Positions 17,470-60,055 of a stretch of DNA of 64,000 nt are shown one piece after another; within the stretch, counting starts at the first letter, position 1, and every line of letters begins with the position of its first letter. The DNA is taken from positions 166,001 through 230,000 of the forward strand of contig NZ_CP152050.1 in NCBI RefSeq assembly GCF_038632915.1. Reading direction: 5' to 3'. The notes beneath the pieces are model-generated. The model searched no databases. It saw only the letters and a list, made by a program, of their open reading frames with translations, and was not told the DNA's origin. Both the position numbers and the translations under genes were made by a program. The stretch comes from Paenisporosarcina sp. FSL H8-0542. GTDB lineage: Bacteria; Bacillota; Bacilli; Bacillales_A; Planococcaceae.

Positions 17470-17737
17470 ATCTTTAACCAAAACATCAAAACGCTTTGAT
17501 GAGGAGAAGTACATAAGGCACGCTCTTTAGAGAGGACCACCACCGGCTGAAAGTGGTCTGAGCTTAGGCACTATGGAAATGCACCTCTGAGCGCTCAGCT
17601 GAACCATTTAGTAAGCGAGCCGTACCGTCTACGTTACAAGACGCCAAGTGGGAAGGACCGCAAAACATCCTTCCAATCAGAGTGGAACCGCGCTATTACA
17701 GCGTCTCTGTCAGTCAATGACAGGGGCGCTTTTTATT
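17470..17737 (+). promoter_or_regulatory. T-box riboswitch specific for tRNA-Cys
   Basis: The T-box sequence AGAGTGGAACCGCG is at 17679-17692. Stem I carries an AGTA element (about 17507) and a specifier UGC at 17580-17582 followed by A, reading Cys. The TGGA that pairs with the tRNA end calls for discriminator U73, which tRNA-Cys has. Terminator: AGCGTCTCTGTCA with TGACAGGGGCGCT, then TTTTATTTT. Uncharged tRNA-Cys would let transcription enter cysE-cysS. Confidence 0.93.
17700..17737 (+). terminator. Regulated terminator of the Cys T-box
   Basis: 13-bp stem (17700-17712 with 17718-17730) followed by TTTTATTTT; competes with the T-box antiterminator. Confidence 0.92.
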
Positions 17738-23470: not shown

Positions 23471-23593
23471 CGCCACTCGATGCGAAAGCTAGCTTTCGCT
23501 AGATTAGGGGAAGGAAGGCTAAATTCCCGACATCGTGTCGGAACGCCTTCATGACCCACATCCTGTGGCCCTAAGCTTAGGTGAGAGCTGGCG
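23471..23593 (+). repeat. Cloverleaf-like palindromic element
   Basis: Outer arms CGCCA (23471-23475) and TGGCG (23589-23593) enclose an 18-bp palindrome (23482-23499), CCGAC-atcgt-GTCGG (23527-23541), CCAC-atcct-GTGG (23556-23568) and CTAAGCTTAG (23571-23580). Could be a mobile palindromic repeat or a folded RNA; only one copy is in this window. Confidence 0.55.
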
Positions 23594-25109: not shown

Positions 25110-25254
25110 ACTTTTGTTGTAAATAAATTATTTGTACCGTAGACAGTAGGGGCGACTTGTCGCATAATGATCCTACCGAGGACATGCATTCAGATTCTTT
25201 TTAAGATGACGTTTCAGCCCCTGTGTCTATATAGATCCAGGGGCTTTTCTTTTG
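25110..25254 (+). promoter_or_regulatory. L10 autoregulatory leader with attenuator
   Basis: About 145-nt leader in the position of the L10 leader of Firmicutes, in which the L10(L12)4 complex binds RNA and favours termination. It ends in a strong terminator, AGCCCCTG with CAGGGGCT (25216-25245) then TTTTCTTTT. The L10-binding fold was not traced base by base. Confidence 0.8.
25216..25254 (+). terminator. Attenuator terminator in the rplJ leader
   Basis: 8-bp GC-rich stem with a 14-nt loop, followed by TTTTCTTTT. Confidence 0.85.
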
Positions 25255-25291
25255 GCGGTATAAATGACTCATTCTATTAGGAGGTGTCCAG

Positions 25292-55432: not shown

Positions 55433-55813
55433 ATGGGTTACAGAAAACTTGGTCGTACAAGTTCTCAACGTAAAGCGATGTTACGTGACTTAACAACTGA
55501 TTTGATCATCAACGAACGCATTCAAACGACAGAAGCTCGTGCGAAAGAACTTCGTTCAGTTGTTGAAAAAATGATTACATTAGGTAAACGTGGAGATTTG
55601 CATGCACGCCGTCAAGCTGCATCTTATATTCGTCGTGAACTAGTGACTGCTACTGATGAAGAAGGCACTGAAACAACAGTTTATGCTTTGCAAAAATTGT
55701 TTGATGATGTAGCACCACGCTACGCTGATCGTCAAGGCGGATACACACGTATTATGAAAATGGGACCTCGTCGTGGAGACGGAGCACCTGTTGTAGTGAT
55801 TGAATTAGTTTAA
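55433..55813 (+). CDS. rplQ: 50S ribosomal protein L17
   Basis: 126 residues, slightly longer than the 120 of B. subtilis owing to a TDEEGTETT insertion before the last third. [20 protein letters not shown] start. AAAGGAGG upstream. Last gene of the alpha operon, followed by a terminator. Confidence 0.97.
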
Positions 55814-55825
55814 TCATCACAATTC

Positions 55826-55865
55826 GAAGAGGGTTCTAGGTTAGTAGCCGCCCTCTTCTTTTTAA
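55826..55865 (+). terminator. Terminator of the spc-alpha supercluster
   Basis: GAAGAGGG (55826-55833) pairs with CCCTCTTC (55851-55858) around a 17-nt loop; TTTTT follows. Confidence 0.85.
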
Positions 55866-55909
55866 AAGAAAAAGATTTATACGACATAATGAAAAGCAGA
55901 GCGTTACGA

Positions 55910-56036
55910 TGAGCGGACCTTTTGGTAGCGTCTCGTCTAGCTCTACGCACCTCATTCACGTAGACGGTCTGAGCAACCGAATACGAAAAAGATATAGAAG
56001 AGCGCATTTCTCTGAATGAGGTGCGCGCTTTTTTAT
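55910..56036 (+). ncRNA. Candidate structured RNA / attenuator upstream of ecfA1
   Basis: CGGACC (55914-55919) pairs with GGTCTG (55966-55971); inside, TCTACG (55942-55947) pairs with CGTAGA (55959-55964), exposing an 11-nt loop CACCTCATTCA. This loop plus flanking CG (55946-55958) is the perfect 13-nt complement of TGAATGAGGTGCG (56013-56025) in the 3' arm of the following terminator. The two pairings exclude each other. No known family recognised. Confidence 0.4.
56002..56036 (+). terminator. Terminator ending the structured element
   Basis: GCGCATTTC (56002-56010) pairs with GAGGTGCGC (56018-56026), then GCTTTTTTATTT. Confidence 0.75.
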
Positions 56037-56088
56037 TTCATTGATAGAAAATATTTATTATTTGGATATCAGTGTAAGAATATATACT

Positions 56089-56123
56089 CAGTTTGCACCT
56101 TTCTGGTGCAAACTGTGTTTTTG
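56089..56123 (+). terminator. Perfect terminator hairpin before ecfA1
   Basis: CAGTTTGCACC and GGTGCAAACTG form an 11-bp perfect stem with a 5-nt loop, followed by TGTTTTTG. Confidence 0.85.
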
Positions 56124-56194
56124 TAATAGTGTAAAATAGAAACATTGATGAGAATGAGTTGAGTTCGAGCAGAGTAAGAGGAGGTCATATAGAG

Positions 56195-57040
56195 ATGACA
56201 GAAATAATATCACTACATGAAGTCACCTATACATATTCACCAGAAGAAAAGGATGCGCGAAAAGCTGTAGAAAACATTTCTTTTTCTGTCAATGATGGCG
56301 AGTGGATTGCAATCGTTGGTCATAATGGTTCTGGTAAATCCACAATGGCGAAACTCATGAATGGACTGTTATTTCCTCAATCGGGGGAAGTACGTGTTCT
56401 TGGTGAAACGCTGAATGAAGAGAATTTATGGGATATTCGTTCACAAATGGGCATGGTATTTCAAAACCCAGACAATCAATTTGTCGGGGCTACCGTCCAG
56501 GACGATGTCGCTTTTGCTTTGGAAAATAACGGAGTTCCGTTTAAAGATATGGTTGTACGTGTGCACGAGTCCCTTGCGCAAGTGAAAATGGAAAAGTTCT
56601 TAGATAGTGAGCCGCATCATTTATCAGGTGGACAGAAGCAACGAGTAGCTATTGCGGGTGCATTGGCTTTAAAGCCGAGAATTCTTATCTTGGATGAAGC
56701 TACTTCTATGCTCGACCCACAAGGGCGGGAAGAAGTATTAACTACCGTTCGTAGATTACGGGAGAAAACACAGTTAACGGTTTTATCCATAACGCATGAT
56801 CTCGAGGAAGCTTTACTTGCGGATCGCATTTTTGTAATGAATAACGGGCACAAATATGCTGAAGGCACACCAGCTGAAATTTTTTCTCGTGGAGAAGAAC
56901 TGGTGGCACTTGGATTAGATCTGCCATTTGCCATGAAAATGGGCAGTCTATTACGTGCGAATGGAATAGCGTTAAAAAACGAACACATGTCAGAACAAGA
57001 GTTGGTGAATGATGTATGGACATCCAACTTCAACAAGTAG
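56195..57040 (+). CDS. ecfA1: ECF transporter ATPase EcfA1
   Basis: 281-residue ABC ATPase of the shared energy-coupling module used by vitamin-specific S components. Walker A GHNGSGKST (about residue 42), Q-loop FQNPDNQFVG, signature LSGGQKQR (about 143), Walker B ILILDEATSMLD. ATG 56195 after AGAGGAGG; the longer frame from 56159 contains the ribosome site. Overlaps ecfA2 by 25 nt. Confidence 0.96.
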   Translation: MTEIISLHEVTYTYSPEEKDARKAVENISFSVNDGEWIAIVGHNGSGKSTMAKLMNGLLFPQSGEVRVLGETLNEENLWDIRSQMGMVFQNPDNQFVGATVQDDVAFALENNGVPFKDMVVRVHESLAQVKMEKFLDSEPHHLSGGQKQRVAIAGALALKPRILILDEATSMLDPQGREEVLTTVRRLREKTQLTVLSITHDLEEALLADRIFVMNNGHKYAEGTPAEIFSRGEELVALGLDLPFAMKMGSLLRANGIALKNEHMSEQELVNDVWTSNFNK

Positions 57041-57888
57041 GGTATGCCTACGCCAAAGGGACACCTTTTGAAAAACGTGCACTATACGACGTGGATTTAC
57101 TTATTCCTTCTGGTTCCTACCAGGCTATTATCGGACATACTGGCTCAGGGAAATCGACTTTACTGCAACATTTAAATGCATTATTGAAACCATCTGAAGG
57201 GTCAGTACAGCTTGGCGATATGACGATTGAAGCTGGCAAGAAAGCAAAGAACTTAAAATCGATCCGTCAGAAAATTGGCATCGTTTTTCAATTTCCTGAA
57301 CATCAATTGTTTGATGAGACTGTATTGAAAGATATCATGTTTGGTCCTTTAAACTTTGGCGTACCAAAAGAAGAGGCGGAACGACGGGCACGTGTCTTAG
57401 CTGACCAACTGGGTTTACCTGAAGAAGTACTGGATAAGTCACCGTTCGATTTGTCGGGTGGTCAAATGCGACGAGTGGCCATTGCGGGTGTGTTGGCGAT
57501 GGAACCTAGCGTCTTGGTATTAGATGAGCCTACAGCAGGTTTGGACCCTCGTGGACGTCAGGAAATCATGGATTTGTTCCACCAACTGCATGTAGAAAAA
57601 GGATTAACCACGGTTTTGGTAACCCATTCCATGGAAGATGCGGCGCGCTATGCAGATCGAGTAGCGATCATGCATGATGGCCGTTGTGTTCTAAGTGGCG
57701 ATCCGGTCACTATTTTCGGAAATGAAGAGAGACTTGCTGAATATCGTTTAGCAGCACCACGTGTTGTACGTTTCCAACGTCAAGTTGAAGCTCGACTAGG
57801 TTATCCATTGGACAGACTCTGCTTGACAGAAGAACAGTTAGCGCTGGAAATAAGTCGTGTCGTTCAAAGGGAGCGTGATTCCTTATGA
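57016..57888 (+). CDS. ecfA2: ECF transporter ATPase EcfA2
   Basis: 290-residue partner ATPase. Walker A GHTGSGKST (about residue 40), Q-loop FQFPEHQLFD, signature LSGGQMRR (about 145), Walker B LVLDEPTAGLDP. Forms the EcfA1-EcfA2 heterodimer below EcfT. Starts in the ecfA1 3' end; ends overlapping ecfT by 4 nt. Confidence 0.96.
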   Translation: MDIQLQQVGYAYAKGTPFEKRALYDVDLLIPSGSYQAIIGHTGSGKSTLLQHLNALLKPSEGSVQLGDMTIEAGKKAKNLKSIRQKIGIVFQFPEHQLFDETVLKDIMFGPLNFGVPKEEAERRARVLADQLGLPEEVLDKSPFDLSGGQMRRVAIAGVLAMEPSVLVLDEPTAGLDPRGRQEIMDLFHQLHVEKGLTTVLVTHSMEDAARYADRVAIMHDGRCVLSGDPVTIFGNEERLAEYRLAAPRVVRFQRQVEARLGYPLDRLCLTEEQLALEISRVVQRERDSL

Positions 57889-58682
57889 TGGAAAAAATGA
57901 TATTTGGTCGTTATATTCCAGGGGATTCATTTGTACATAAACTGGACCCTCGTTCGAAACTGGTATTTGTCTTTTTGTTTATTGCCATTGTCTTTTTGGC
58001 AAACAATGCTGTGACATATGCATTAATTCTTGCATTTACTTTAGGAACTGTTTTGCTATCACGTATTCGTCTATATTTCTTAATTAATGGGTTGAAACCC
58101 ATCATGTTTTTACTCATATTTACTTTCCTGATACACATCTTCTTTACAAAAGAAGGAGACTTATTATGGAAATGGCATTTTATCGAAGTGTATGAAGAAG
58201 GACTGAGACAAGGTATTTTCATTTCCACTAGATTTTTGGTTCTGGTCTTTATCACATCCATTTTAACACTGACCACTTCGCCGATTTCAATAACAGATGG
58301 AATGGAAGTTCTATTGAACCCATTCAAACGTTTCAAATTACCCGTGCATGAACTCGCGTTGATGATGTCGATTTCGTTGCGCTTTATTCCAACATTGATG
58401 GATGAAACTGATAAAATTTTGAAAGCCCAGATGGCCCGCGGTTCAGATATTAGTACGGGCTCCATCAAAGAGCGAATCAAAGCGGTTGTGCCGTTACTCA
58501 TCCCTTTGTTTGTCAGTGCATTTAAACGGGCTGAAGATTTAGCTGTAGCGATGGAAGTACGTGGCTACCGTGGTGGAGAAGGGCGAACACGATACCGTCA
58601 ATTAAAGTGGGATTGGCGCGATAGTACGGCCCTCGCTATGTTAGGGCTTTTAACTTTATTACTATGGTGGCTCCGATCGTAA
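57885..58682 (+). CDS. ecfT: ECF transporter transmembrane subunit EcfT
   Basis: 265 residues with five to six membrane segments and the coupling-helix motifs AQMARGSDIS and AMEVRGYRGG (Ala-Arg-Gly type) that dock into the ATPases. ATG overlaps the ecfA2 stop (ATGA). No S component is encoded here, as is usual for group II systems. Confidence 0.95.
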   Translation: MMEKMIFGRYIPGDSFVHKLDPRSKLVFVFLFIAIVFLANNAVTYALILAFTLGTVLLSRIRLYFLINGLKPIMFLLIFTFLIHIFFTKEGDLLWKWHFIEVYEEGLRQGIFISTRFLVLVFITSILTLTTSPISITDGMEVLLNPFKRFKLPVHELALMMSISLRFIPTLMDETDKILKAQMARGSDISTGSIKERIKAVVPLLIPLFVSAFKRAEDLAVAMEVRGYRGGEGRTRYRQLKWDWRDSTALAMLGLLTLLLWWLRS

Positions 58683-58701
58683 AACTGGAGGGAAAAATGC
58701 A

Positions 58702-59451
58702 GTGAAACGCTTAAAAGCAATTATCATGTATGACGGCTATGGATTTGCCGGCTATCAAGTACAGCCTAATGCACGGACGGTTCAGCTTGAATTAGAACGC
58801 GTCCTTACAAAAATGCACAAAGGGACAATCGTCCGTGTAGTGGCAAGTGGCCGCACAGATGCTGGTGTTCATGCGACTGGACAAGTCATCCATTTTGATA
58901 CCGACCTGCAATTTCCCATCGAGCGATGGCAACGGGCACTAAATGTTCAGCTGCCCGGTGATATCCGCGTGGTGTCTGTTGAAGAAGTTTCAAGTGACTT
59001 TCATGCCCGATATGGTACTTCAGGCAAAGTATATCGATACAAATGGGGCTTAGGAGACGTTGAGAGCCCTTTTAAGCGTCATTACGTCGTATATATGCCT
59101 GGAATCAATCCGGACATCGAGCGAATGAGAGAAGCCGCTCAAGCGTTTTTAGGCACACATGATTTTACGAGTTTTTGTTCAGCTCGCACAGAAGTTGTCG
59201 ACCGGGTGCGAACCATCAAACGATTGGAATTGCTTGAAAATGAGCATGGTGAACTTCATATGATCATTGAAGGCGACGGGTTTTTATATAATATGGTTCG
59301 CATCATTGCGGGGAATTTGTGGGAAGTTGGGATTGGTCGTCGCGAGCCGGGCGACATGGCACTAATGCTTGCCGCAATGGATCGCAAAAAGGCAGGTAAA
59401 ACCGCGCCAGCACACGGTTTGTACTTGGAATCTGTATTTTATTCTGAATGA
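58702..59451 (+). CDS. truA: tRNA pseudouridine synthase A
   Basis: 249 residues (EC 5.4.99.12); modifies U38-40 of tRNAs. Catalytic Asp near residue 53 in SGRTDAGVHATGQ, and GDGFLYNMVRIIAGNLWEVG. GTG start after GGAGGG, 19 nt from ecfT. Confidence 0.97.
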   Translation: MKRLKAIIMYDGYGFAGYQVQPNARTVQLELERVLTKMHKGTIVRVVASGRTDAGVHATGQVIHFDTDLQFPIERWQRALNVQLPGDIRVVSVEEVSSDFHARYGTSGKVYRYKWGLGDVESPFKRHYVVYMPGINPDIERMREAAQAFLGTHDFTSFCSARTEVVDRVRTIKRLELLENEHGELHMIIEGDGFLYNMVRIIAGNLWEVGIGRREPGDMALMLAAMDRKKAGKTAPAHGLYLESVFYSE

Positions 59452-59483
59452 AGCAACACGTCCAGGTGTTTTAAAATAATTCC

Positions 59484-59512
59484 TTGACTTTTTGTTCCAT
59501 ACGTTATATGAT
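59484..59512 (+). promoter_or_regulatory. Promoter of rplM-rpsI
   Basis: TTGACT (59484-59489), 17-bp spacer, TATGAT (59507-59512). Confidence 0.85.
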
Positions 59513-59529
59513 GACACATGGTATTTCAT

Positions 59530-59570
59530 TAACCCCACAATAAGCCCCGAAACTTGTTGTTGATGATGAT
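59530..59570 (+). promoter_or_regulatory. L13 autoregulatory leader
   Basis: The AACCCCACAATAAGCCCCGA stretch with hairpin CAATAAG (59538-59544) / CTTGTTG (59553-59559) resembles the L13 leader element found before rplM in Bacillales, where L13 binds its own mRNA. Confidence 0.7.
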
Positions 59571-59617
59571 ATAGAAAATTTCAAATCAGATTAGATCGAA
59601 TTAGGAGGACAAAATAC

Positions 59618-60055
59618 ATGCGTACAACATTCATGGCTAAAGGTCACGAAGTAGAGCGTAAATGGTTAGTAGTAGACGCAGAAGGCCAAACACTTGGTCG
59701 TTTAGCTTCTGAAGTAGCTGCTATCTTACGTGGAAAAAACAAACCAACATTCACACCACACGTTGACACAGGTGATCACGTGATCATTATCAACGCTGAG
59801 AAAATCGAATTGACTGGTAAAAAATTGACAGACAAAATTTACTACCGTCATACACAATTTGCTGGTGGATTGAAAAAACGTACTGCATTACAAATGCGTA
59901 CAAACTACCCAACAAAAATGCTTGAATTAGCAATTAAAGGGATGCTTCCTAAAAACTCTTTAGGTCGTCAAACGTTCACTAAACTTCACGTATACGCTGG
60001 AGCAGAACATCCACATGCAGCACAAAAACCAGAAGCTTATGAGCTTCGCGGATAA
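59618..60055 (+). CDS. rplM: 50S ribosomal protein L13
   Basis: 145 residues; early 50S assembly protein. [20 protein letters not shown] start and [40 protein letters not shown] upstream. Operon with rpsI, 20 nt apart; L13 leader upstream. Confidence 0.98.

Follow-up and report, generated by a model that had tools for sequence, protein, structure and literature searches.

The L17 downstream element (L17DE, RF01708) was first described in Lactobacillales and Listeria, where it follows L17 genes, and was proposed to be a possible 3'UTR feedback element (Weinberg 2010, PMC2864571). No function has been assigned to this candidate RNA since 2010, and in the available parts of that description the feedback role is the only suggestion, the range is limited to these two groups, and neither a terminator nor ecfA1 is mentioned. 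Excerpts of other papers place it consistently downstream of L17, confined to Firmicutes (PMC7247131), and predict it within the approximately 180-nt rplQ 3'UTRs of Enterococcus (PMC7724050). In S. aureus strains, Sau-30 and sRNA347 lie 348 and 380 nt upstream of ecfA, according to the available part of the report (PMC6102330). No paper linking the second hairpin of L17DE to a Bacillales terminator stem, or sau-30 to L17DE, was found in the literature searched, part of which was available as excerpts.

The locus compared here belongs to Paenisporosarcina sp. FSL H8-0542, a member of the Planococcaceae. The window, which is the whole stretch of 64,000 nt that was analyzed, covers positions 166,001-230,000 of contig NZ_CP152050.1 (NCBI RefSeq GCF_038632915.1, forward strand), and all positions below are in window numbering. 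A structured RNA was found in the 381-nt gap between rplQ and ecfA1 (Table 1). The explanation favored on balance, with its mechanism included, is that this element is a divergent L17DE fused with an intrinsic terminator in Bacillales. Among the downstream genes, the match of ecfT to TIGR02454 was under the family cut-off (104.9 vs 111.8). Elsewhere in the window, Rfam matches above cut-off were a T-box (17487-17711), a Bacillaceae-1 RNA (23503-23569), and an L10 leader (25119-25258).

Table 1. Coordinates of the genes and RNA features around the rplQ-ecfA1 gap.
Feature	Position	Strand	Basis
rplQ, ribosomal protein L17	55433..55813	+	TIGR00059, E=8.8e-46
T1, first terminator after rplQ, hairpin GAAGAGGG...CCCTCTTC and T-tract	55826..55863	+	fold of -16.8 kcal/mol (55810-55870)
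Conserved motif GATTTATACGACA, near-fixed spacing ahead of the P1 core	55874..55886	+	core common to 98 distinct sequences (picked by relaxed motif)
P0 5' strand, AAAAGC	55892..55897	+	pairs with 56027-56032 in MFE fold; 90.5% of A1 cells paired
P1 domain, the L17DE core: GAGC/GCUC, internal loop GUUAC/UA, GAU.../...GUC, inner hairpin	55899..55943	+	
P2 5' strand (first half of 13-nt pairing)	55946..55958	+	97.8% paired, double changes in 7/13 pairs
P3 hairpin within the P2 loop, apex CUGAGCA	55959..55985	+	67.0% pairing and double changes in the inner 4 pairs
LS, local hairpin resembling a terminator (GCGCAUUUC/GAGGUGCGC), mutually exclusive with P2	56002..56026	+	9/9 pairs in 43/56 rows; no covariation
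P2 3' strand	56013..56025	+	pairing conservation and covariation
P0 3' strand, GCUUUU (56027-56032), and U-tract	56027..56034	+	MFE fold, sequence
ecfA1, energy-coupling factor ATPase	56195..57040	+	TIGR04520, E=2.8e-116
ecfA2, ecfT, truA, rplM	57016..60055	+	same strand as ecfA1

The sequence-only reading of this DNA had claimed a perfect 13-nt complementarity, and CGCACCTCATTCA (55946-55958) is indeed the exact reverse complement of TGAATGAGGTGCG (56013-56025). This match is the longest perfect complement within the gap; a 13-nt complement arose by chance in 0/2000 dinucleotide shuffles of the 153-nt element and in 2/500 of the whole gap. Moreover, the region 55905-56040 folds better than 200/200 shuffles (z = -3.4). 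Conservation of the pairing, here called P2, was examined in alignment A1, which comprises the window and 55 Planococcaceae rows (56 in total). A1 was drawn from a list of 87 rows, from which 12 specified loci, rows with long P1 inserts or distant T-tracts, and near-duplicates had already been removed; the rows of the 87 outside A1 are further near-duplicates or Bacillaceae. P2 was paired in 97.8% of A1 cells, with 7 of its 13 pairs changed on both sides. Compensatory changes, named in the sequence-only reading as support for the pairing, were therefore present: 58 double-changed cells were counted against a shuffle mean of 15.9 +- 4.3, none of 500 shuffles reached 58, and slid versions of the pairing gave 0-9. 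A second alignment, A2, consists of 41 hand-picked rows and omits L060, L066, L096, L097, and most Planococcaceae. Across Bacilli, double changes were found in 11/13 pairs of P2, and the strand pairs among relatives include CGCACCTCATTCA/TGAATGAGGTGCG, CGCACCCCATTCA/TGAATGGGGTGCG, CGCACCTCATTTT/AAAATGAGGTGCG, and CGTACCTCATCTGAG/CTTAGATGAGGTACG.

In agreement with the downstream terminator of the sequence-only reading, a terminator scan found a terminator-like hairpin at 56002-56026 (56002-56010/56018-56026) followed by GC and T6. In L112 and L083, P2 closes loops of just 8 and 10 nt and so forms a plain terminator hairpin, with T6 at most three bases beyond it. Because P2 is a plain terminator stem in these short-loop relatives, it is very probably a terminator stem rather than an anti-terminator. 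Such a stem as second hairpin would give L17DE a concrete output in Bacillales, namely termination between rplQ and ecfA1. In the inspected Planococcaceae gaps, GAGYGUUAYGAU ... GUCUAGCUC precedes a strand whose complement lies right ahead of CGC and T6. The arrangement is best read as P1 inserted in the 5' arm of the terminator, with P0 extending the stem as far as the U-tract.

At the level of sequence, P1 and P2 are demonstrated by conservation, and P0 is supported more weakly. Conservation favors two P1 helices (55899-55902/55940-55943 and 55908-55913/55932-55937) as well as P3 (55965-55968/55976-55979). In A1, the outer helix of P1 was 100% paired with one-sided variation only, and the inner part was 92.1% paired with 7 pairs changed on both sides. 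The P1 core, GAGYGUUAYGAU/GUCUAGCUC, is nearly invariant across Planococcaceae and Bacillaceae. P0 was paired in 90.5% of cells within the family (A1), without covariation, and its strand types track the family (AAGCC with GGCTT, AAAATCT with AGGTTTT). When P0 strands were swapped, the own partner outscored foreign ones in two of the four classes (GGCT and AGGT), and foreign partners came out ahead in CGCT (13.1 vs 12.7 for the own) and GCGT (10.5 vs 10.0). The alignment of ten Enterococcus-type loci reads as CACTTT in an upstream arm lying opposite AAAGTG, which is next to or close to the T-run; L268 and L269-like rows deviate. P0 can thus be regarded as a moderately supported closing helix, and its missing covariation in the family and the split outcome of the swap count against the favored explanation. 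Two other stems of the sequence-only reading were not borne out. Its closing stem (55914-55919/55966-55971) can be drawn with 6 pairs, one of them G-U, but 67.8% of cells were paired compared with 67.0% in shuffles (56 rows), and its small loop hairpin (55944-55947/55959-55962) was paired in 45.1% of cells, not above shuffles. What stands of that observation is the 13-nt pairing and the downstream terminator-like hairpin. As separate observations, most Planococcaceae keep the P3 apex UGAGCA (55965-55979) almost unchanged despite its variable stem, and this apex may be a contact or binding site, and GUUACGAU of the P1 loop has one weak 8-nt resemblance to 23S rRNA (GGCGAGUUACGAUUGC; L237, ~624), a weak lead for protein mimicry.

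An Rfam scan of the element returned nothing above a cut-off. Below threshold, full-length matches were obtained to L17DE (20.0 bits, cut-off 37, 55898-55973) and to the L20 leader (RF00558; 25.0 bits, cut-off 58.7), along with a partial match to sau-30 (RF02388; 22.9 bits, cut-off 70, 56015-56037). The L20 leader resembles the element through a weak full-length fit of upstream fold and terminator; however, identity with it was rejected on the score and on the downstream gene, which here is ecfA1. The features of L17DE are present in the window copy: a P1 core GAGYGUUAYGAU ... GUCUAGCUC with its GUUAY/UA internal loop, a second hairpin 3' of P1 (P2), and a position downstream of rplQ, here past T1. 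Moreover, the L17DE model and R1, a model that derives from 41 rows and includes no helices but P1 and P2, match overlapping places in eight genomes (G183, G232, G250, G253, G254, G407, G426, and G483). The element is almost certainly an L17DE homologue. Since the window copy scores under the 37-bit gathering score, which counts against the favored explanation, it was filed as a divergent homologue and not as a member of the Rfam family. Among 261 Planococcaceae genomes, L17DE reached E<=0.001 in 14 and passed the cut-off in 3. Unlike L17DE as described so far, the window element very probably has an intrinsic terminator stem as its second hairpin, with P0 closing on the U-tract. Streptococcus-like loci carry L17DE without a T-run directly after it, which counts against the favored explanation. 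In Lactobacillales (L110, L113, L242-L271), the second hairpin is followed by CACTCATCAT; this strand and parts of the P1 5' strand GAGTGTTATGAT are complementary and may form an alternative pairing. Some loci deviate, for example L102 and L117.

Further genomic analysis bore out a conserved structured RNA that ends in a terminator between rplQ and ecfA1 in relatives. R1 matched 258/261 Planococcaceae genomes and 251/251 of those of good quality. rplQ was located in 258/261, and the R1 misses are precisely the 3 genomes without a found rplQ. In a class sample of 398 genomes, R1 matched 83 (39 Planococcaceae, 29 of genus g27, and 15 elsewhere) and L17DE matched 45. The sequence 3' of rplQ was also inspected in 178 loci, where a script found the core and a helix before a T-run in 154; for ten Lactobacillales-type loci among these the script-picked helix is unreliable, and the element was confirmed by R1 and L17DE. 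R1 adds L166 and L177, giving the element in 156/178 rplQ loci. The 22 loci without it all belong to Bacillaceae, with the pumilus, licheniformis, and velezensis groups among them; the element is therefore dispensable there, which counts against the favored explanation. These are counts of loci and not of species, and some genomes are probably duplicates of others. Regarding second copies, weak extra R1 matches were found in G058 and G257. L231 was rejected as one because its core-like stretch has neither a GTCTAGCTC partner nor a terminator, and L232 because the core is absent from it.

Among 20 loci taken from R1 matches, rplQ was upstream in 20/20 and an ecfA1 homologue downstream in 19/20. 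Among 30 loci taken from L17DE matches, rplQ was upstream in 30/30 and an ecfA1-like gene lay within the locus in 4/30, these loci being short enough that farther ecfA1-like genes would escape. rplQ is thus the constant partner (50/50 model-picked loci), which argues for a ribosome-linked role and against a vitamin switch. L210 and L228 have gaps of 141 nt in total, with the ecfA1 start predicted, by extrapolation from tblastn, about 20 nt beyond the T-run. With so short a gap, ecfA1 in these loci is probably reached through the terminator of the element.

According to the favored explanation, RNA polymerase that passes T1, or that arrives directly from rplQ in loci lacking T1, would make the element RNA. 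A folded P1, probably one held by a ribosome-related protein, would let P0 and P2 stack; RNA polymerase would then be released, leaving a short stable RNA. When P1 is unfolded, P2 would stop three bases before the U-tract and termination would weaken, which would allow more read-through into ecfA1-ecfA2-ecfT-truA-rplM. Whereas homology and the P2 helix were established by sequence comparison, we infer the regulation, the ligand, and the direction of the effect. That termination is regulated rather than constitutive is plausible but falls a little short of probable, and a ribosomal protein as the ligand is suggested tentatively. It is distinctly unlikely that L17DE in Bacillales is the sensor arm of a regulated terminator, with P1 reading a ribosome-assembly signal such as free ribosomal protein and thereby setting read-through from the ribosomal operon into ecfA1A2T and truA-rplM. 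If so, the energy coupling of nutrient uptake would be tied to ribosome production.

A constitutive double terminator appears somewhat unlikely. T1 and the L17DE-type terminator would together insulate the ribosomal operon from ecfA1, and P1 would be a 3'-end stabilizer or processing mark without any switching. This agrees with the two alternative 3' folds, since either of them (P2 or LS) places a stem beside the U-tract, and with T1 preceding the element in the window. The position of T1 between rplQ and the element also counts against the favored explanation; transcripts reaching the element need either T1 read-through or an intervening start. However, a plain terminator needs no nearly invariant P1 core of the kind kept across Planococcaceae and Bacillaceae.

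LS and P2 have eight bases in common (56018-56025) and are therefore mutually exclusive. The best fold contains P0, P1, P2, and P3 (-53.9 kcal/mol), and blocking the P2 5' strand gives P0, P1, P3, and LS (-46.4 kcal/mol). Such exclusive pairings would suit an attenuator switch in which LS is the terminator, the 13-nt P2 is the anti-terminator, and ligand binding decides between them. The persistence of LS would suit it as well, as its 5' strand GCGCAUUUC is conserved and the 56 family rows keep 9/9 pairs in 43 and 7-8 pairs in 13, thus at least seven in all. However, covariation in LS was equal to shuffles in these 56 rows, and in L044, L051, and L165 LS gains C-A mismatches while the P2 5' strand compensates. 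Moreover, the LS 5' strand (GCGC) is missing from the aligned Bacillaceae rows, and the U-tract follows P2 itself, closed by P0. An attenuator of this kind is unlikely. The mutually exclusive terminator and antiterminator of the sequence-only reading hence survive as two exclusive 3' pairings but not in their roles, as P2 reads as the terminator stem and LS is without covariation. In Planococcaceae, LS may represent an additional form that is weaker or kinetic; being conserved as well, it could also be the working terminator, a point that counts against the favored L17DE-terminator fusion. An LS register of AGCGC/GCGCU was replaced by the 9-pair register, and an LS-P2 pseudoknot was rejected by reasoning, given the eight shared bases in the 9-pair register and a loop that is too short in L033/L124.

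The sequence-only reading had also considered an independent small RNA, an option that gained some support from sau-30. sau-30 passed its cut-off in 2/32 genomes searched (G556 and G291), and in both it overlaps the 3' end of the R1 match. Because these are two members of genus g27, this genus is probably Staphylococcus. Positions 15-37 of sau-30 match the P2 3' strand and U-tract of the window; in contrast to the element, sau-30 covers its 3' part only and extends about 30 nt further. The overlap and the placement of Sau-30 and sRNA347 upstream of ecfA, taken from the available part of PMC6102330, suggest that a relative probably transcribes this site, apparently past the U-tract too. These matches link a Staphylococcus small RNA to the same element as L17DE. 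An independent small RNA would have this terminator as its 3' end and Sau-30 or sRNA347 as its Staphylococcus counterpart, and it would be in keeping with GATTTATACGACA holding its distance to the element where inserts part GATTTATACGACA from T1 (L004 and L014). However, no -35 preference was found upstream of GATTTATACGACA in 98 distinct sequences picked by a relaxed motif, and since sau-30 extends about 30 nt beyond the R1 end in G556 and G291, it is not simply the terminated RNA. The probability of this alternative is accordingly low. A vitamin-ligand riboswitch for the ECF module, which the sequence-only reading had thought conceivable and which the position before ecfA1 in Planococcaceae would favor, can be practically discounted, as the element matches no riboswitch family in Rfam and stays with rplQ where no ecfA1-like gene lies downstream (26/30 of the short L17DE-derived and 1/20 of the R1-derived loci).

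The sequences flanking the element have features of their own. A T1-like hairpin is present in the inspected Planococcaceae and Bacillaceae gaps and absent in L209 and L210. Its interior is conserved in Bacillaceae (L060-L109 gaps) as GGACAGTT ... AACTG/AACTTGTTC ... GCCCTT, and T1 interiors in Planococcaceae have other conserved sequences; T1 could itself be another structured element. A sigma-A promoter at GATTTATACGACA was rejected on the missing -35 preference and on the number of CATAAT sites (2 vs 1.7 in shuffles). TTTATACGACA is rare in the genome, with 3 copies vs 4 for the reversed control. Downstream of the element, a hairpin repeat at 56058-56125 has one other partial copy in its own genome, and several tandem copies of a similar unit lie between T1 and the element in L014.
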